From Thermohalobaculum xanthum (lineage in GTDB: Bacteria; Pseudomonadota; Alphaproteobacteria; Rhodobacterales; Rhodobacteraceae), in NCBI RefSeq assembly GCF_016623495.1, contig NZ_JAEHHL010000001.1, positions 744,001-808,000 of the forward strand: a DNA stretch of 64,000 nt. The letters are read 5' to 3'. How positions within the stretch are numbered: the first letter of the stretch is position 1; each line of letters starts with the position of its first letter. Both the position numbers and the translations under genes were made by a program. A model generated the notes under the pieces. It was not told the DNA's origin, searched no databases, and saw nothing but the letters and a program-made list of their open reading frames with translations. Shown piece by piece: positions 17,307-27,357 of the stretch.

Positions 17307-18488
17307 TCAGCAAGAAATTTCTATGAGCTCGCGCGGCGAGTGCGTCAGCAAGCGGCAACCATCCCGTCCCACAAGGACCATGTCCTCGAGCTTTACCATT
17401 CCGGCCTGCTCGTCACACACGTGCAATTCGACCGCCAGGATCATGCCTTCCCGGATCGGCTCGCGGCCACCGCGCGACAGGAAGGGTGGCTCGTTGAGAT
17501 CCAGGCCGACGCCGTGGCCCACAAAATGCGCCTGCTTGCCATCGGGAAACTTCAGAAAGGCGTCATGCAGTCCCAGCCTGTCTGCGTGAAAGCAGGCCCT
17601 GGCAAAGACATCCCCCGAACTCATGCCTGGCAAGATGTCGGCGATCAGCCCGTCTGCCACGTCACGCAGCCGCTCGTAGAGCCGGGCAGTCTCGTCGCTC
17701 GGGCGCCCCATGCAATATGTGCGGGTCTGGTCGCCGTGGTAGCCTTGGACACAGGTCGGGATATCGACGATCACGAGGTCGCCCGCCCGGATCGATCGAC
17801 GGCCAGCTCCGGCGGGCACGGCAGCGCTCAGACCACAGCCCGAGATCGTGAACACCACGCCGCTGATCCGCCCGATGTTCTCGCCCGATGCGAGGGGGCC
17901 GCGGCCCATGGTGAAGTCCGGCTGACGGACGAAATACACGCCCTCGTGCCCTGCCCGGCGCTGGCCATCCTCGACGAACGCCGACGCCTCCAACTCGCTG
18001 ATGCCGGGGCGCCAGTTTTCCACGGCCGCCCTGTGCCCGGCGTCAAGTGCAGCGGTTGCCAGTTCAATGGCGGCGACTTCTTTGCTGTCCTTGATCATTC
18101 TCTGATCCAGGATGTCCGAAGAGATATCGACCAGCCGCGTGTCATGCAGCTGCTCTTGCAGCTTTCGATATTGTGGGACCGTCATCAGATCGAGTTCCGC
18201 CCCAATCACCAGCCCGGCGGTGTTGTGACCGAATACGCTGGACACGATCCTCTCGAGACTTCCCTCTCGAAGAATCCGATCGCCGCTCAGAGCGGACTGG
18301 GTCTGCGCGAAATCGAGCCCCGCGCGGACAAACAGGAAGGCGTCAGATGGCAAGACGACCAGCCATCCGGGTTGTGCCGTGCCGGTGTAGTAATAGATGT
18401 CCCTGGACGCATGGGTCATTGCCCCCGAGAGGTCGCGCTCCCTGATGCGGTCTTGAAGGCAAGCGATACGCTCTTGAAACCGTGCCAT
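17307..18488 (-). CDS. M24-family metallopeptidase-like protein (Xaa-Pro aminopeptidase / creatinase fold)
   Basis: A 393-residue protein with an N-terminal creatinase-type domain (about 1-150) and a pita-bread catalytic domain. The five M24 metal ligands can be placed: Asp in IVDIPTCVQG, Asp in YHGDQTRTY, His in HFVGHGVGLDLNEPPF, Glu in ILAVELHV and Glu in VKLEDMVLV. Ribosome-binding AGGAAAGA precedes the ATG. It lies 142 bases after meaB in the same direction and may be the last gene of the mutase operon. Substrate is unknown: Xaa-Pro peptides, creatine-like amidines or ectoine derivatives are all possible for this fold. Confidence 0.82.
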   Translation of the reverse strand: MARFQERIACLQDRIRERDLSGAMTHASRDIYYYTGTAQPGWLVVLPSDAFLFVRAGLDFAQTQSALSGDRILREGSLERIVSSVFGHNTAGLVIGAELDLMTVPQYRKLQEQLHDTRLVDISSDILDQRMIKDSKEVAAIELATAALDAGHRAAVENWRPGISELEASAFVEDGQRRAGHEGVYFVRQPDFTMGRGPLASGENIGRISGVVFTISGCGLSAAVPAGAGRRSIRAGDLVIVDIPTCVQGYHGDQTRTYCMGRPSDETARLYERLRDVADGLIADILPGMSSGDVFARACFHADRLGLHDAFLKFPDGKQAHFVGHGVGLDLNEPPFLSRGGREPIREGMILAVELHVCDEQAGMVKLEDMVLVGRDGCRLLTHSPRELIEISC

Positions 18489-18630: not shown

Positions 18631-19566
18631 TCAGTTGCGCGAGCCCGCGGCAAGCGCTGCGAGTGACTGCTTCACGACGCGTTCGAGTTCTTCCGGCTCA
18701 AGGCTGCCGATATCCTTTCCGGCGATGCTCTCCGTGATCCGGCCCGCCAGTCTCTGAACCTCGATGGCCAATTTGCGCGCATTCCTTCGGGCTGCCCGGT
18801 CGGTGCCCGCCGCCTCAAGCCGGTCGTCGAGGACACGGCAGAGTTCGGCGACACCAAGGCCGGTCGAGGCGGCCACGCGCAGAACCGACACCCCTTGCTT
18901 GTCACCGGCGCGCAGCGACAGCATTGCTTCAAGATGCTTCGCGGTCTGCTCGGCATCGTCACGGTCCGCCTTGTTCACCACCAGCACGTCCGCAATTTCC
19001 AGGATACCTGCCTTGATCGCCTGAAGCTCGTCGCCCAGCCCGGGCGCCGAGATCACCACGCTCAGATCCGCAACTTGCGAGATCTCCGTCTCGGACTGCC
19101 CCGCACCGACGGTCTCGATCAGGATAAGAGGCCACCCGGCCGCATCCATCACGTCAGCCATATCCTGCGCTGCCAGGCAAAGCCCGCCCAGATGACCGCG
19201 CGCCGAGACCGAGCGAATGAAGACCCCATCATCAAGGCTGTGCGCCCCCATGCGCGTCCGGTCCCCCAGGACTGCGCCACCAGAAATCGGGCTAACAGGG
19301 TCCACCGCGAGAACCGCCACCGGTTGCCCCTTCCTGCGCCACTCGTGGATGAGCGCATCAACCAGTGTCGATTTGCCCGCGCCCGGCGGGCCGGTGAAAC
19401 CGATTACGCGCGCCCGGCCGATGTCCCCGCGCAACGCGTCAAGAAGCGCCTTGCCGTCTTCGCCGCCGTTCTCCGCAAGCGTCAAAGCCCGACCAAGCGC
19501 GCGCCGGTCGCCGTCTCGCACCCTTTGCGCCAGGCGCTCGGCACGGGATGTCGGCTCGGTGGACAT
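18631..19566 (-). CDS. meaB: MeaB-type G-protein chaperone of B12-dependent acyl-CoA mutase
   Basis: A 311-residue P-loop GTPase with Walker A GFTGPPGAGKSTL, the MeaB motif ETVGAGQSE, NKAD guanine-specificity motif and the VDPVSPISGGAVLGDR-type switch segment. MeaB proteins guard mutase holoenzyme assembly and eject inactivated cobalamin. Its start codon directly follows the stop of the mutase large subunit, so its client is almost certainly that enzyme. The older name ArgK for this family reflects a mistaken role in arginine transport. Confidence 0.93.
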   Translation of the reverse strand: MSTEPTSRAERLAQRVRDGDRRALGRALTLAENGGEDGKALLDALRGDIGRARVIGFTGPPGAGKSTLVDALIHEWRRKGQPVAVLAVDPVSPISGGAVLGDRTRMGAHSLDDGVFIRSVSARGHLGGLCLAAQDMADVMDAAGWPLILIETVGAGQSETEISQVADLSVVISAPGLGDELQAIKAGILEIADVLVVNKADRDDAEQTAKHLEAMLSLRAGDKQGVSVLRVAASTGLGVAELCRVLDDRLEAAGTDRAARRNARKLAIEVQRLAGRITESIAGKDIGSLEPEELERVVKQSLAALAAGSRN

Positions 19567-21246
19567 TCATGCCACCATCTGGGGGTGGCCGAACCCGAGC
19601 TCGCGCCTGAGGCACGCGATGATCTCGCCATGCGTCACGCCGACCAGTGCCGCATCCACAACTTTCTCGTAGACGTTCTCCGACCCGTTCGCGGCACGGG
19701 CGAGGTCGTCGAGCGCCGCGCTCACCGCGCGTTTGTCCCGGGCCGCCTTGAATGCCCGGAACTCTGCGACCTGCGCCTCCATCGCCGCGCGGTCGGGGCG
19801 ATAGGTTTCCACCTCCTGCACCTCGGCCTCGGCCTGGTAGCAGTTCACGCCAACGACCTTCTCCGCCCCGGATTCGATGCGATTCTGATACGCAAGAGCC
19901 GACTTGCCGATCATGCGCTGGACGATCCCGGCATCGACCGCCTTGTACATGCCGCCGGCCTTCTCGATGACGTCCATGACCTCGAGGATCTTTTCCTCCA
20001 TCTCGTTGGTCAGGGCCTCGACGTAATAGGAGCCGCCCAGAGGGTCGATCACGTCGCAAAGATGGGCTTCTTCGCGCAGGATGTTCTGGGTCGCGACCGC
20101 GATCCGCGCCGACGCTTCGGTCGGGCAGGCCAGCGCCTCGTCAAAGCCGTCCGTATGCATCGACTGGAGGCCACCGAAGATGCCGGCGATCGCCTGCGCC
20201 GTGACCCGGGCGATGTTGTTGAGCGGTTGCTGCTGGGTCAGGTCCACGCCCGAGGTCTGGCCGTGGAACTTGAACCTCCAGGACCTCGGATCCTTCGCGC
20301 CGAACCTGTCGCGCGCGATCCGCGCCCAGATCCGTCGGCCCGCCCGGAACTTCGCCACCTCCTCGAAGAAACTGATCGAGATGTCGAAGAAGAATGTGAA
20401 CCGCCGCAAGATGTTGTCGGGATCCATGCCGGCGTTGATGCAGTCCTCGGCGTATTGGATCGCCGTGGACAGGGTCAGGCCCATGGTCTCGGCCGGCGTG
20501 GCGCCGGCCTGCTGCATATGCTGGCCGACGACGGAAACCGGATTCCAGTTCGGCACGTGCTCGCGGCAGAACTTGACGTGATCGACGAAGACACGCCGCG
20601 CGCCCGGCTGGCTGAGGCGGTAAAACATGTGGTTCGCCACGTAGTGCGAGATATAGTCCGACTGGTTCGCCGTGCCGGTGATCTTGTCGAACGGAACGCC
20701 GCGCCGCTTGGCCACGCCCAGAAGGAACGCGAACAGGGTAAACGGCGTCGGGTCATTCATCGCGGTCGAGATCCGGTCAATCGGAACGCCGTCGAGCGCG
20801 GCATCCATGTGATCGACCGTGTTGACGACCGTGCCGCAAGTGCCCAGCAGCGGGATCGGGCTTTCGTCGCAGTCAATTCCCCTGAAGCCGGAGTTGCAGG
20901 GCAACAGGCTGATGGCAGTAGCGCCCTGCTGCAGCAGCATCCGAACGCGCTGGTTATAGTCCTGCGGCGTGCCGAGACCGATCAGCTGCCTTTGGGTCCA
21001 GGTGCGCCCGCGATGCATCGTATTGTAGATGCCGCGCGTGTAAGGCGGCTCGCCCGGCATTCCCAGATCGTCCGCATAGCGGTCCTCGGACCAGTCGAGC
21101 GGCGTGTAGAGCGGCCGCACCTCGATGCCCGAGCGGTTCACAACCGCCCGGTCGCGCCCGATCTCGCGCTCGTACCGCGCATTCCAGTCGTCGAAGGATG
21201 CCTGCAGGTTCCGAGCATCCGCGTTGTCATGGAATTTCGTCATCAT
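19567..21246 (-). CDS. Coenzyme-B12-dependent acyl-CoA mutase, large (catalytic) subunit, atypical specificity
   Basis: A 559-residue stand-alone catalytic chain of the methylmalonyl-CoA mutase superfamily, without the B12-binding domain, which is supplied by the next gene. Catalytic His is kept (His243 in GQHMQQAGA, equal to MCM His244). The substrate-pocket positions differ: the RQY of methylmalonyl-CoA mutase (Tyr89) is RQL here (Leu88), the Arg207 position is Asn205 (YVANHMF), and MCM Tyr243 is Gln242. Known classes use Tyr/Arg (methylmalonyl), Phe/Gln (isobutyryl) or Ile/Gln (2-hydroxyisobutyryl); numbers are from memory. The Leu/Asn pair fits none. Carbon-skeleton rearrangement of a branched acyl-CoA is expected; the substrate is unknown. 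Confidence 0.9.
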
Positions 21247-21671
21247 GCGATCTCCGCTGCTTCGCGCGCGATACGGGCCTCTTGAGCAAGGCGGCGCACG
21301 GTTTCGACGATCTCCTGGCTGGTGGCGCCCGGATTGAAGACGGCGCTGACCCCGGCCGAAATCAGCTCGGGCTGTTCGTTCTGAGGGATGATCCCGCCAA
21401 CGATGACGCGCACGTGGTGAAGCCCCGCCTCGCGAAGCGCGCCAACCAGTTCAGGCAGGATGAGATGGTCCGTGGCCAGCGAGCTGACACCGACAACGTC
21501 GACGTCTTCCTGAAGAGCCAGGTTCACGACCGCCGCGATTTCCTGCCATGGCGGCGTGTAGATCACCTCCATGCCGGCATCACGCAGATAGGCCGCCACG
21601 ACACGGCTGCCCCGATCATGGCCGTCGAATCCGATTTTCGTGACCAGCACTCTCTCCGGATATCCCATCAT
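21243..21671 (-). CDS. Cobalamin-binding small subunit of the acyl-CoA mutase
   Basis: A 142-residue Rossmann-like domain with the complete B12 base-off/His-on motif: DGHDRG (DxHxxG), VSSLATDH (SxL) and VGGIIP (GG). Alone it matches the C-terminal domain of methylmalonyl-CoA mutase; paired with the 559-residue chain it gives the two-subunit layout of isobutyryl- and 2-hydroxyisobutyryl-CoA mutases. It overlaps tetR upstream and the large-subunit gene downstream by four bases each, so the three are co-transcribed. Adenosylcobalamin is the expected cofactor. Confidence 0.93.
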
Positions 21672-22270
21672 TCCGATCCTTCTGACTGGGTGCGGGCGGT
21701 GCAGCGGAAAAGACGTACGAGCTCTTGGGCAATCTCTGCCGGGCCGGTTCCGCCGGGCTGATACCAGACCTGCACATGGTTCACCGCCCCGATCAGGAAC
21801 AGTCTCAGCAGCCGTCGATCAACGTCCCCGGGAAGGGGCAACGCTGCGACCAGGCTCTTCAGGATTGCTTCGTATCTGTCGCGCAGCTCGACCAGATCGG
21901 CTTCGGCGGACGGGACCGCATCCGGCAGGATCCGGATGATGACACTCGCATAGGCGGTCGGTTCGATGATCATCCCGATATGGGTGGTGAGCATCCGTTC
22001 AAGCCGCACCCAGGGGTCGTTTTCATCCGCAAGTGCATCGAGCACCCGTGCCGTCAGGCGCTTCACCCCCTCCTCGTAGACCGCGACGAGCAGCGCTTCC
22101 TTGTTCGGGTAGTGGTAATAGATCGAGCCGGGACGCATGCCGCAGCTCTCGGCAATGTCCCGCATCGTGGTCGCCTGGTAGCCACGCGTCGAAAACAACT
22201 CGGCCGCGCTGTCGAGCAGCGTTTCGATGCGGTTGTTCGAGCGAGTCGCCGTTTTCATGTCCGACACCAT
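21668..22270 (-). CDS. TetR/AcrR-family regulator of the acyl-CoA mutase operon
   Basis: A 200-residue regulator with an N-terminal TetR helix-turn-helix (about 15-60; FSTRGYQATTMRDIAESCGMRPGSIYYHYPNKEAL) and a C-terminal ligand domain. It is first in the operon, overlapping the B12-subunit gene, and a palindrome CAAACGTTTG lies eight bases upstream of its start, which suggests autorepression. TetR regulators of fatty-acid and branched-acyl-CoA pathways often sense acyl-CoAs, so the mutase substrate or product is a plausible effector. A second ATG at 22258 is an equally possible start. Confidence 0.88.
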   Translation of the reverse strand: MVSDMKTATRSNNRIETLLDSAAELFSTRGYQATTMRDIAESCGMRPGSIYYHYPNKEALLVAVYEEGVKRLTARVLDALADENDPWVRLERMLTTHIGMIIEPTAYASVIIRILPDAVPSAEADLVELRDRYEAILKSLVAALPLPGDVDRRLLRLFLIGAVNHVQVWYQPGGTGPAEIAQELVRLFRCTARTQSEGSE

Positions 22271-22427: not shown

Positions 22428-22898
22428 TCAGTAGTGCTCAGGCGCCCAGTTGAGGAACAGCCCGACATCCCCCGGCAGATCGTCCGGAAAGTTGATGATG
22501 GCGGCTTTCAGCCGATACCCCTGCGGCTTGGCGAAGCCCTCGTATCGCTCGTACAACTCCTTCGCCTTTCCCTGGAGCGTCGAGGGCCAGGCCTTGTCAC
22601 CATTGTTGATCGCGCGCCCGCCATCGGTGCACAGCTTGGCCGGAAAGCTGTAGACCATCGCCTCCATCGCGCCGTCCTTGACGGCGTTCATGACGAGGCG
22701 TCGGATCAGGGTACGCTCCTTCTCGGTGACGTGCTCGGTCATGAATTTCGTAATGAACTCGGACCGCTCCTTCTCTTCAGCCTCGCGGGCCTTGTCCTTC
22801 CGCGCCATTTCTTCCAGCTGCTTTTCGAGCAGCATCCGTCGCAGGTCTTCGGCACTGGGAACGCCGCTCGGCGGGGTCTTCGAGTGATCCGAGCTCAT
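22428..22898 (-). CDS. Conserved protein of unknown function
   Basis: A 156-residue cytoplasmic protein. The first 60 residues are highly charged and helical (EKQLEEMARKDKAREAEEKERSEF). The rest is compact, with segments such as MEAMVYSFPAKLCTDGGRAI and LKAAIINFPDDLPGDVGLFL that look conserved. The frame is well preserved and starts behind an AGGGA-like site, so I take it as real. I do not recognise a domain with a known role. It is a single gene with noncoding sequence on both sides (157 and 822 bases). Confidence 0.7.
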   Translation of the reverse strand: MSSDHSKTPPSGVPSAEDLRRMLLEKQLEEMARKDKAREAEEKERSEFITKFMTEHVTEKERTLIRRLVMNAVKDGAMEAMVYSFPAKLCTDGGRAINNGDKAWPSTLQGKAKELYERYEGFAKPQGYRLKAAIINFPDDLPGDVGLFLNWAPEHY

Positions 22899-23720: not shown

Positions 23721-25310
23721 ATGACCAACAAGAACGGAACAAGCAAAACCGGCGGAATCCTTCGGCCCGACAGGCGCAGTTTCCTCGGTGGAACGGCTGC
23801 GCTCGGCCTGGCCGCGGGTCTCGGACCTGCGCTGCTGCCACGTGACCTGAGAGCCGCCGAACCCAAGAAAGGCGGCAAGCTACGGGTTGCGATGCAACAG
23901 GGCGCAACGACCGACAGCCTCGATCCGCAGACCTACACAGACACCTTCATGCTCTCGATCGGTTTCGGCACGCATGGCACGCTGACCGAGATCAACCCCG
24001 AGGGCGAACTGGTCGGCGACCTCGCGGAAAGCTGGGAAGCGAGCACGGACGCCAAGACTTGGACGTTCCGGATCCGCAAGGGCGTCGAGTTCTCGGACGG
24101 CAAGACGCTGACCGCTGACGACGTCATCGCCTCGATCAACCACCACAGGGGCGAGGACTCGAAGTCGGCGGCAAAGTCGAACGTCGACCCGATCGCCGAG
24201 ATCCGCAAGCCTGACGACAACACCGTGGTGTTCGACCTGAAGAACGGCAATGCCGACTTCCCTTACCTGATGGCGGACTATCACCTCCTGATCATGCCGG
24301 CCGTCGACGGCAAGGCGGACTGGGAGAATTACATCGGGACCGGCGGCTACGTCCTCGACACCTTCGAGCCCGGCATCCGCGCCACGCTCAAGCGCAACCC
24401 GAACTACTGGAAGCCGGGACGCGCCCATATCGACGAGATCGAGATGGTAGTGATCGCGGATCCCGCGGCTCGCCAGAATGCGCTGATCACGGGCGAGGTA
24501 GACTATCTGCAGCGCGCCGATCTGAAGACCGTGCATCTGCTCGCGCGGCGTCCCGAGATCCATATCGAGGAATCGACCGGCTTCCTGCACTACACGGCGC
24601 CGATGATCACCACTAATTCTCCTTACGATTCAAACGAGTTGAGGCTTGCGATCAAGCACGGCATCAACCGTGACGAGTTGCTGGAGAAGATCCTGCGCGG
24701 CCATGGCGCAATCGGCAACGACCATCCGATCGCGCCCTCGGTGCCGTTCTGGGCCGATCTCGAACAACGGACCTACGACCCCGACAAAGCGAAGTTCCAT
24801 CTCAAGAAGTCCGGGTATGAAGGTGTTACTCTTGATCTTTCTGCCGCAGACGCAGCCTATGCCGGCGCCGTCGACGCGGCGGTTCTGATGAAGGAGCAGC
24901 TGGCGGCTGCGGGAATGGACATCAATGTCGTCCGCGAGCCCAACGACGGCTACTGGTCCAATGTCTGGATGAAGAAGGACTGGTGCCAGTGCTACTGGGG
25001 CGGCCGGCCGACCTGCGACTGGATGTTCAGCCAGGCTTATGCCGAGGGCGCCAACTGGAACGACACCTATTGGAGCAACGAGCGCTTCAACGTGCTGCTC
25101 AAGCAGGGCCGCGCCGAGCTCAACCCGTCGGTTCGCGCCGAGATCTATCGCGAGATGCAACAGATCGTGCGCGACGATGGCGGCGTCGTGGTCTGGGCCT
25201 TCGCGAACTATGTCGATGCCCGCACCGACAAGGTCCAGCACGGCGAGAAGGTCGCAGCCAACTGGGACATGGATGGCGGCCGCTTCATGGAGCGCTGGTG
25301 GGTGGCCTGA
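23721..25310 (+). CDS. Oligopeptide/dipeptide-type ABC transporter substrate-binding protein (Tat-exported)
   Basis: A 529-residue family-5 extracytoplasmic solute-binding protein. The N-terminus has a twin-arginine signal (DRRSFLGGTAALGLAAGLG). The mature start (KKGGKLRVAMQQGATTDSLDPQTY) and the segment GELVGDLAESWEASTDAKTWTFRIRKGVEFSDGKTL are typical. The chosen ATG has an AAGGGA site; the longer frame upstream would bury the signal. No permease or ATPase gene accompanies it. Its only partner is the CocE-type hydrolase downstream, so it may feed a transporter encoded elsewhere. Confidence 0.88.
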   Translation: MTNKNGTSKTGGILRPDRRSFLGGTAALGLAAGLGPALLPRDLRAAEPKKGGKLRVAMQQGATTDSLDPQTYTDTFMLSIGFGTHGTLTEINPEGELVGDLAESWEASTDAKTWTFRIRKGVEFSDGKTLTADDVIASINHHRGEDSKSAAKSNVDPIAEIRKPDDNTVVFDLKNGNADFPYLMADYHLLIMPAVDGKADWENYIGTGGYVLDTFEPGIRATLKRNPNYWKPGRAHIDEIEMVVIADPAARQNALITGEVDYLQRADLKTVHLLARRPEIHIEESTGFLHYTAPMITTNSPYDSNELRLAIKHGINRDELLEKILRGHGAIGNDHPIAPSVPFWADLEQRTYDPDKAKFHLKKSGYEGVTLDLSAADAAYAGAVDAAVLMKEQLAAAGMDINVVREPNDGYWSNVWMKKDWCQCYWGGRPTCDWMFSQAYAEGANWNDTYWSNERFNVLLKQGRAELNPSVRAEIYREMQQIVRDDGGVVVWAFANYVDARTDKVQHGEKVAANWDMDGGRFMERWWVA

Positions 25311-25335
25311 CCCCGCTTTTCGCGTAACGATTTCC

Positions 25336-25360
25336 CCTCCGGCGGTCCATCCGCCGGAGG
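25336..25360 (+). terminator. Perfect hairpin between the binding-protein gene and the CocE-type gene
   Basis: Arms CCTCCGGCGG (25336-25345) and CCGCCGGAGG (25351-25360) around a TCCAT loop. There is no T-run behind it, so partial termination or mRNA stabilisation is more likely than full termination. The downstream gene's GGAGGT ribosome-binding site follows directly. Confidence 0.6.
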
Positions 25361-25377
25361 GCGTCGGAGGTATTCCC

Positions 25378-27357
25378 ATGGATGAACCAGTCGGGGTCGA
25401 GGTCATCGAGACCGAGTGGATCACCTTGCCCGACGGCACGCGCCTCGCGGCGCGTATCTGGCTGCCCGAGAACGCGCGAGCGAACCCGGCGCCGGCTGTT
25501 CTGGAATTCCTTCCCTATCGGCGCCGCGACGTCACCGCGCCGCGCGACGAGAGCACCTATCCGGGCCTCGCCCTGCAGGGAATTGCCGGCGTCCGGGTAG
25601 ACATGCGTGGCACGGGCGACAGCGATGGGCTCTACGACGACGAGTACTCGGAAACCGAGCTCTCCGACGCAGAAGCGGTGATCGCCTGGATCGCGTCGCA
25701 GCCGTGGTGCTCGGGCTCGGTCGGCATGATGGGCATCTCGTGGGGCGGCTTCAACGCCTTGCAGGTAGCCTGGCGCAAGCCACCCGCGTTGAAGGCCGTG
25801 ATCTCGATCGCATCGACGGTGGACCGGTTCGCCGACGACATCCACTATCGCGGCGGGGCGCAGCTTTCGGCGCAGGCCTACTGGTCGAACACGATGCTCG
25901 GCAACATTGCGCGTCCACCTGACAGCGCCGTGGTCGGCCCCGCCTGGCGCGAGATCTGGCAAAAGCGCCTCGATGCGCTGACACCGCCCATTTCGACGTG
26001 GCTGCGGCACCAGCGTCGAGACGATTTCTGGCGGCACGGTTCCGTCTGCGAGGATTTTTCCCGGCTCATCACCCCCTCCCTCGTCATTGCGGGCTGGGCG
26101 GACGGGTATCGGAACACACCGTGGAAGGCTGTCGAAGGGACCGGCGGACGGGTTCGCGCGCTTACCGGCCCCTGGATCCACAAGTATCCGCATTTCGCAT
26201 GGCCACGCCCGCGTGCCGATTTCGTCTCCGAGGCCGGCCAATGGTTCAACCGGTGGCTGGCGGGCCGGGATGGCGCCGAGTTGCCGCTCCATCGCCTCTT
26301 CGTCTCGGAAGCCGTCCGACCCGGCGGTCGACGCGAAGACGAATCGGGACGCTGGGTCTCGATCGACGCGCAGAGCCCTGCCTCCGAAAGCCGGTTCTGG
26401 CTTGTCGACAGCCGGCTGGCCGACCGGCCAGGCCCTGCCAAGCCGGTGACGATTTCAACCCGACAGGACTGCGGCACCGAGGGCGGCGAGTTCTTCACGG
26501 TGAACCCCGAAGGCGATCTGCCGGGCGATCAGCGGGCGGACGATGCCCTCTCGCATTGCTTCGAGACAGGAAGGCTGGAACAGCCGATCGACCTGATCGG
26601 GCGACCGGTGCTGCGCCTTCGCGTCGCGCTCGACGCGCCGGTCGGGGCGCTCGTGGCCCGACTCGTCGACGTCCATCCGGACGGCGCCGCACACCGGGTG
26701 TCGATGGCAATCCTCAACCTGACGCACCGGCATGGCAGCGAGACCCCGAACCCCATGGACCCCGGCAAGGCCGAGCCGGTCGAGATCGTCTTCGACGCGG
26801 CGGGATATCGGTTCAAGCCTGGCCACCGCATCAGGCTCGCACTCTCAACGGCGTATTTCCCGATGGTCCTGCCAGCACCCGGTGCCGTTGCGGCGACCAT
26901 TGAAACCGGCACGGCCGAGCTTGTGGTGCCCCGGGCGGCGGCGCACGATGTCGAGGTTTCACCGCCCGACGACCCCTCTCCCCTGCCCCGCTATCCGATG
27001 CACGCGCCGGCCTCCGCCAGCCACGAGGTCCGGCGCGATCCCGGCTCGGGCCGCGTCACGGTCGACCGCAGCGATGACACGGGCGAGATCGAGCATCCCG
27101 GAAACGGCATGATCTGGCGCGAGACGCGTCGCTCCTCGTGGTCGATCGGGCCGGACGACCCGCTCGGCTTCGAGGGCGTGGAAGAAATGGTCGCGATGCG
27201 CCTCCGCGACGGTGTCCAGACCGAAGTCACTGCACATCACCGGCTGACGGCGAGCGCCGAGCGCTGGTTTATCGAGGCGAGTCTCACAACCCGTGTCGAC
27301 GGCGCCGAGACCTTCTCGCGCGCGTGGCGCTCGGAAATCGAGCGCGACCTGATGTAG
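25378..27357 (+). CDS. CocE/NonD-family alpha/beta hydrolase (X-Pro dipeptidyl-peptidase-like S15)
   Basis: A 659-residue serine hydrolase. Nucleophile Ser121 sits in GISWGG; the acid is likely Asp in AGWADGYRNT (about 240) and the base His in GPWIHKYPH (about 270). A C-terminal jelly-roll domain (about 430-580; RLRVALDAPVGALVARLVDVHPDG) is typical of CocE and glutaryl-7-ACA acylase relatives. No signal peptide is seen. It hydrolyses an ester, amide or acyl-Pro bond of an unknown substrate. Located 67 bases after a solute-binding-protein gene, it probably processes what that protein imports. Confidence 0.87.
   Translation: MDEPVGVEVIETEWITLPDGTRLAARIWLPENARANPAPAVLEFLPYRRRDVTAPRDESTYPGLALQGIAGVRVDMRGTGDSDGLYDDEYSETELSDAEAVIAWIASQPWCSGSVGMMGISWGGFNALQVAWRKPPALKAVISIASTVDRFADDIHYRGGAQLSAQAYWSNTMLGNIARPPDSAVVGPAWREIWQKRLDALTPPISTWLRHQRRDDFWRHGSVCEDFSRLITPSLVIAGWADGYRNTPWKAVEGTGGRVRALTGPWIHKYPHFAWPRPRADFVSEAGQWFNRWLAGRDGAELPLHRLFVSEAVRPGGRREDESGRWVSIDAQSPASESRFWLVDSRLADRPGPAKPVTISTRQDCGTEGGEFFTVNPEGDLPGDQRADDALSHCFETGRLEQPIDLIGRPVLRLRVALDAPVGALVARLVDVHPDGAAHRVSMAILNLTHRHGSETPNPMDPGKAEPVEIVFDAAGYRFKPGHRIRLALSTAYFPMVLPAPGAVAATIETGTAELVVPRAAAHDVEVSPPDDPSPLPRYPMHAPASASHEVRRDPGSGRVTVDRSDDTGEIEHPGNGMIWRETRRSSWSIGPDDPLGFEGVEEMVAMRLRDGVQTEVTAHHRLTASAERWFIEASLTTRVDGAETFSRAWRSEIERDLM

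Follow-up and report, generated by a model that had tools for sequence, protein, structure and literature searches.

At this locus lies a four-gene operon for a B12-dependent acyl-CoA mutase on the minus strand of the window, i.e. the whole stretch of 64,000 nucleotides that was analyzed. The genes occur in the order TetR regulator, small subunit, large subunit and MeaB; neighboring genes in this run overlap or abut, with an overlap of 4 bases between the TetR and small-subunit genes. The genes, together with the next one downstream, are the following.

21668..22270, minus strand: TetR-family regulator, first gene of the operon (PF00440, 1.5e-19; PF17932, 3.4e-15)
21243..21671, minus strand: small cobalamin-binding subunit, 142 aa (TIGR00640, 9e-38; PF02310, 8.6e-23)
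19567..21246, minus strand: acyl-CoA mutase large subunit, 559 aa (PF01642, 4.8e-170)
18631..19566, minus strand: MeaB-type GTPase chaperone (TIGR00750, 280.1 bits with a cut-off of 240.75; PF03308, 1.5e-79)
17307..18488, minus strand: M24 metallopeptidase-like protein (PF00557, 1.2e-38)

The small subunit contains the motif GFDGHDRG and matches the small subunit of 2-hydroxyisobutyryl-CoA mutase (HCM; 4r3u_C, 5.3e-25). The top PDB match of the large subunit, hereafter the query, is the corresponding HCM chain (4r3u_A, 6.1e-111), followed by methylmalonyl-CoA mutases (MCM); it also scores above the cut-off of the family-level model TIGR00641. The same genome contains two further PF01642 genes, an MCM-type gene on contig C12 and a gene on contig C30 (row L003 in our alignments) which, from its sequence, we take to be similar to ethylmalonyl-CoA mutase (ECM-like). 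The mutase of the operon is therefore an additional one. Upstream of the TetR gene and on the same strand is an ORF of 156 aa (22428-22898) that matched no Pfam or NCBIfam model at E 0.001. A scan of the window with Rfam returned no family at its threshold, a promoter scan found none, and a terminator scan found 2 versus 4.2 in shuffled sequences.

A scan of genome contigs yielded 83 confirmed relatives, 80 of which were listed. By title these listed loci come mainly from betaproteobacteria, Burkholderiales among them; alpha- and gammaproteobacteria are also represented, as are single MAGs with the names Acidimicrobiales, Myxococcota, Deltaproteobacteria and Planctomycetota (L082, which is outside the clade described below). 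Neighboring genes were counted by tblastn, because the ORF caller is crude in GC-rich DNA. Among the 80 listed loci the small subunit adjoins the large subunit in all 78 that were testable, a TetR gene is adjacent in 58 of the 69 with enough upstream DNA, and MeaB is adjacent in 60 of 70 testable cases. The commonest extra neighbor is a PaaI-type hotdog thioesterase; 36 of the 64 testable loci have a gene for it no more than 2.5 kb downstream of the large-subunit gene (e.g. L084, 14620-15081, and L093, 12608-13042); a tblastn search of the window did not find it. This enzyme may free CoA from stalled intermediates. In the organism's own family, 4 of 198 sampled genomes, its own included, had a match at E 1e-150 or better; the operon is therefore an accessory trait in that family.

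Six relatives with at least 60% identity are on plasmids, from Roseovarius sp. THAF8, Sphingobium sp. YC-XJ3, Xanthobacter autotrophicus Py2, Diaphorobacter sp. HDW4B, Pseudosulfitobacter and Sulfitobacter. Five of them are annotated as "acyl-CoA mutase large subunit family protein"; the Xanthobacter protein, Xaut_5043, is annotated as methylmalonyl-CoA mutase. On the Sphingobium plasmid (L091 and L118; 194805-212020) AMP-ligase/thiolase genes and the TetR-small-large-MeaB run occur twice within about 17 kb, and the two copies are separated by IS6100- and ISSp1-type transposase genes. Pseudomaricurvus alkylphenolicus (L013) has the operon genes at about 70% identity; its species name points to alkylphenol degradation, and pivalate-like acids could arise from tert-alkylphenols.

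The M24 gene of the window follows MeaB on the same strand after a gap of 142 bases, and we are unsure whether it belongs to the operon unit. A relative of it is near the mutase in two of the 80 listed loci (L005 and L006) and on the Roseovarius plasmid (L094, 63% identity), on the opposite strand to the mutase in all three. On the other side of the operon is an ORF for a CocE-type hydrolase (25039-27357), which has 36% identity over 138 aa to an ORF near the L094 mutase. The M24 and CocE-type genes that flank the operon may point to a precursor that is an amide or an ester.

Next we consider the residues of the substrate pocket, the codons of which are located as follows.

20983..20985, minus strand: codon of Leu88, opposite Tyr89 of MCM, Ile90 of HCM and Phe of IcmF
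20890..20904, minus strand: codons of residues 115-119 (LPCNS), with Leu115 opposite Asp117 of HCM
20632..20634, minus strand: codon of Asn205, opposite Arg207 of MCM and Gln208 of HCM
20518..20523, minus strand: codons of Gln242-His243, opposite Tyr243-His244 of MCM

The MCM and HCM residue numbers follow the initial annotation or the usual numbering of these enzymes; Tyr89 and Arg207 are characteristic of MCM, and Ile90 and Asp117 of HCM. In a MAFFT alignment Leu88 is aligned with Tyr89 of human MCM and of the MCM from the same genome; the row of P. shermanii MCM (PDB 5req) is a Y89F mutant and hence has Phe at this position. Asn205 is opposite Gln in both HCM and IcmF, and the catalytic His244 of MCM is opposite His243. 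The residue mapping from HMMER alignments agrees with MAFFT. Thus both methods support the initial annotation in pairing Leu88, Asn205, Gln242 and His243 with Tyr89, Arg207, Tyr243 and His244 of MCM, and in its conclusion that a pocket with Leu88 and Asn205 in place of Tyr89 and Arg207 is not that of a methylmalonyl-CoA mutase. A candidate placement of Ala204 opposite Arg207, taken from a HMMER alignment, was rejected; MAFFT places Asn205 there.

Conservation was counted over 86 clade rows, comprising 79 of the 80 listed loci (L082 was omitted), five plasmid rows, the query and Xaut_5043. Leu88 is kept in 84 of the 86 rows (one X, one gap), Asn205 in 85 (one gap) and Gln242 with His243 in 84 (two gaps). 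Because the four residues are retained across these rows, the signature is not due to chance. A further signature, overlooked in the initial annotation, is present at residues 115-119, where the clade has (L/I)-P-C-(N/C)-S; the corresponding residues are A-F-D-x-x in MCM, in IcmF and in the ECM-like row, and D-F-D-M-P in HCM. The query reads LPCNS at this site versus AFDLP or AFDLA in MCM.

Asp117 of HCM is the residue that binds the hydroxyl group of the substrate. With Asn205 in place of Arg207 and Leu115 in place of Asp117, the pocket therefore has neither the Arg of MCM nor the Asp of HCM. Judged from the residues, Leu or Ile at the Asp117 site together with Leu at the Ile90 site would make an apolar pocket that suits a tert-butyl group. 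Such a pocket would suit the all-methyl analogue of 2-hydroxyisobutyryl-CoA, and an uncharged substrate is plausible.

A quick tree of 100 rows contained one clade of 81 rows with a support of 100 and a long stem; the rows of MCM, IcmF, HCM, the ECM-like protein and other split mutases all fall outside it. The combined pattern L-(L/I)-P-C-(N/C)-S-N-Q-H is found in 80 of these 81 rows; the remaining row, L062, is gapped at residue 88. The query and Xaut_5043 are together in a starred subset of 15 rows in the quick-tree clade, and in a more careful tree computed from 39 of the 100 rows they are in a set of 11 rows with a support of 100/100. The quick tree carried a long-branch warning for the ECM-like row and for L082, both of which were omitted from the careful tree. 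Eight loci that are fragments were left out of the trees (L067, L074, L075, L076, L078, L079, L081 and L083), and the classes are those sampled, the trees having been built without RcmAB of Kyrpidia and other mutase classes. RcmAB is an (R)-type 2-hydroxyisobutyryl-CoA mutase that occurs in Kyrpidia, according to an excerpt of PMC7176365.

In the alignment the query is 69% identical to Xaut_5043 (71% by tblastn of the large subunit), 36% to HCM, 34-37% to the MCMs from its own genome and from human, and 28% to one IcmF. The only distant locus among those listed is L082 (6001-7572), a split mutase from a Planctomycetota MAG with 37% identity and the Tyr/Arg signature; its branch is long and we are unsure of its placement. 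L082 has I-A-G-G-G where the query has H-G-Q-T-S (328-332).

The similarity to Xanthobacter extends to the gene order. On plasmid pXAUT01, Xaut_5045 to Xaut_5042 follow the TetR-small-large-MeaB order of the window, with separate genes for the large and small subunits (Xaut_5043/5044) as in the window. Xaut_5043 has Leu88, Leu115, Pro116, Cys117, Ser119, Asn205, Gln242 and His243 in common with the query; the only difference in the pattern (LLPCCSNQH versus LLPCNSNQH) is Cys instead of Asn118. The surroundings differ: in Xanthobacter the genes next after the unit code for a PaaI thioesterase, a PaaK-like ligase, an AMP ligase and a LIV ABC transporter, whereas the M24 gene comes next in the window. 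The same plasmid carries a separate HCM-like mutase, Xaut_5021, which is 83% identical to the HCM segment; Xaut_5043 is therefore not the HCM of that plasmid.

Kitanishi, Cracan and Banerjee (J Biol Chem, 2015) reportedly found a native split isovaleryl-CoA/pivalyl-CoA mutase (PCM) by bioinformatics, and expressed and assayed it. Its source is said to have been X. autotrophicus Py2, and we take Xaut_5043/5044 to be the enzyme that they assayed. A search of the literature on PCM, pivaloyl-CoA and pivalate degradation returned no text confirming Xaut_5043/5044 as PCM; the excerpts of PMC11575231, PMC7176365, PMC2847961, PMC5355916 and PMC11599936 do not mention the PCM sequence.

These findings bear on the initial annotation in two ways. 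Its description of a self-contained unit of split subunits, MeaB and TetR holds, as does its view that the pocket is not of the MCM type; the gene order of the unit recurs among the relatives. The proposal that the pocket lies outside the known classes has to be given up, because the clade includes Xaut_5043, presumably a PCM, which shares all four residues, the gene order and 69-71% identity. Provided that Xaut_5043 is the assayed PCM, the query clusters with a characterized class that has the same residues. The Leu88/Asn205/Gln242 pocket would then be the signature of the clade that contains the pivalyl-CoA mutase, and hence of a known kind.

Taken together, the sequence comparisons suggest, with a probability of roughly 70%, that the operon encodes a B12-dependent mutase of the PCM type that interconverts pivalyl-CoA and isovaleryl-CoA. 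The substrate, the direction in vivo and regulation by an acyl-CoA are what we infer. Members of the B12-dependent acyl-CoA mutase family use a radical mechanism. In the proposed reaction the 5'-deoxyadenosyl radical would abstract hydrogen from one of the methyl groups of the CoA-bound acid; migration of the CoA-carbonyl group from C2 onto that methyl carbon would then turn quaternary pivalyl-CoA into isovaleryl-CoA. The latter could enter the leucine pathway via acyl-CoA dehydrogenase, methylcrotonyl-CoA carboxylase, hydratase and lyase. MeaB would serve as the operon's own chaperone and TetR as its regulator. An analogous rearrangement has been proposed for the degradation of pivalic acid, as stated in part of PMC2847961, and passages of PMC10481361 and PMC9974510 state that IcmF also interconverts pivalyl-CoA and isovaleryl-CoA. 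IcmF thus performs the same type of reaction as that proposed for the query; it differs in being a fused protein with Phe, Gln and Tyr at the three positions and 28% identity, and its Phe/Gln pair is absent from the query (Leu88, Asn205).

Metabolic genes elsewhere give indirect support to the pivalyl-CoA reading. On two plasmids, L093 and L097, genes for a carboxyltransferase, a crotonase, a biotin carboxylase and an acyl-CoA dehydrogenase occur shortly after the mutase unit. The L093 carboxyltransferase is predicted to be of the methylcrotonyl-CoA carboxylase (MCC) type: its E-value is 6.4e-176 with MCC beta (3u9r) and 1.9e-76 with propionyl-CoA carboxylase beta (1vrg). Two points about these L093 genes count against the reading: the two top matches of the carboxyltransferase, which score above MCC, bear the names AccD1 and propionyl-CoA carboxylase beta (9tps, 3.1e-178), and for the acyl-CoA dehydrogenase 15 other sequences score above the first isovaleryl-CoA dehydrogenase, 4o5m. 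In the genome of the window, contig C1 has a colinear set with 34% (acyl-CoA dehydrogenase), 52% (carboxyltransferase), 45% (biotin carboxylase) and 53% (crotonase) identity to L093. Contig C28 carries, in this order, an AMP ligase, LivG, LivH, LivM, LivK, LivF and a PaaK-like ligase, which are relatives of the genes that come after the mutase on pXAUT01 and the Roseovarius plasmid; the AMP ligase is 64% identical to that of Roseovarius (L094) and 57% to that of Xanthobacter.

Other observations also count against this reading. Leucine-type genes are seldom close to the mutase: among the 80 listed loci, and at 60% coverage, the L093 crotonase found one, MCC-alpha four (one at 45% identity or more), the carboxyltransferase none, and the acyl-CoA dehydrogenase 15, none of them at 45% identity or more. 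Beside the operon in the window there is no CoA ligase and no carboxylase. The PaaI thioesterase neighbor also counts against the reading in that it names no substrate and that the window lacks it.

The alternative that fares best is that the clade acts in vivo on another, perhaps larger alpha,alpha-dimethyl or alpha-branched acyl-CoA, with pivalyl-CoA just one of the substrates accepted. It is consistent with the varied neighbors (a BktB-type thiolase in 6 and the PaaI thioesterase in 37 of the 80 listed loci), with an AMP ligase plus LivH and LivM of an ABC transporter in 7 of the 80 at 45% identity or more, and with the acyl-CoA dehydrogenase and SDR families that recur near the mutase. We consider this unlikely, because the pocket residues are almost invariant over 81 rows, as expected if the reacting end carries a single kind of group, and because MCC-type genes are present on L093 and L097.

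Far less probable is a variant of 2-hydroxyisobutyryl-CoA mutase. HCM (HcmAB, PDB 4r3u) is the closest solved structure to the query and its top PDB match, and both systems have split subunits and a MeaB gene; the HCM copy on the Methylibium PM1 plasmid is 99.6% identical to 4r3u over the 507 aa searched. Against this, the Ile90/Asp117 pair of HCM is absent from the query, Ile90, Asp117, Gln208 and the Tyr before the catalytic His being replaced by Leu88, Leu115, Asn205 and Gln242, the identity is 36%, and pXAUT01 has the HCM-like Xaut_5021 in addition to Xaut_5043. We give equally little credence to a new class with a reaction not yet assigned, in which Xaut_5043 would be uncharacterized or not a PCM. 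In its favor, the literature searched contained no text that confirms the link between Xaut_5043 and PCM; against it, the PCM of 2015 is reported to be a native split enzyme, and Xaut_5043/5044, which is likewise split and has an apolar pocket, differs from the HCM-like pair that pXAUT01 also carries. A paralogue of methylmalonyl-CoA or ethylmalonyl-CoA mutase is the least credible reading: the query shares with MCM the PF01642 family and the catalytic His, and it scores above the TIGR00641 cut-off, but Tyr89, Arg207 and Tyr243 are replaced by Leu, Asn and Gln, the ECM-like row (L003) has Tyr/Arg instead of Leu/Asn, and the genome has a separate MCM-type gene on C12 and the ECM-like gene on C30.

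If the pivalyl-CoA reading is true, a likely function can be given to genes that are named only generically in five of the six close plasmid relatives, and the PCM type is present in dozens of species as well as on plasmids. Leu88, (L/I)PC(N/C)S at 115-119, Asn205 and Gln242 would then separate the PCM type from the rows of MCM, IcmF, HCM and the ECM-like protein in our comparison. A quaternary carbon makes an acid difficult to degrade; therefore a marker of organisms capable of doing so could aid bioremediation and biocatalysis. Many proteobacteria, and individual MAGs from other phyla, carry a mutase of this clade in an accessory operon. There is a modest chance that the clade represents an overlooked general entry route into central metabolism for quaternary and alpha-branched acids, and that the natural substrate of most members is not pivalyl-CoA. 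If the pivalyl-CoA reading holds, the cells could use pivalic acid, a branched five-carbon acid, via a CoA-bound rearrangement.
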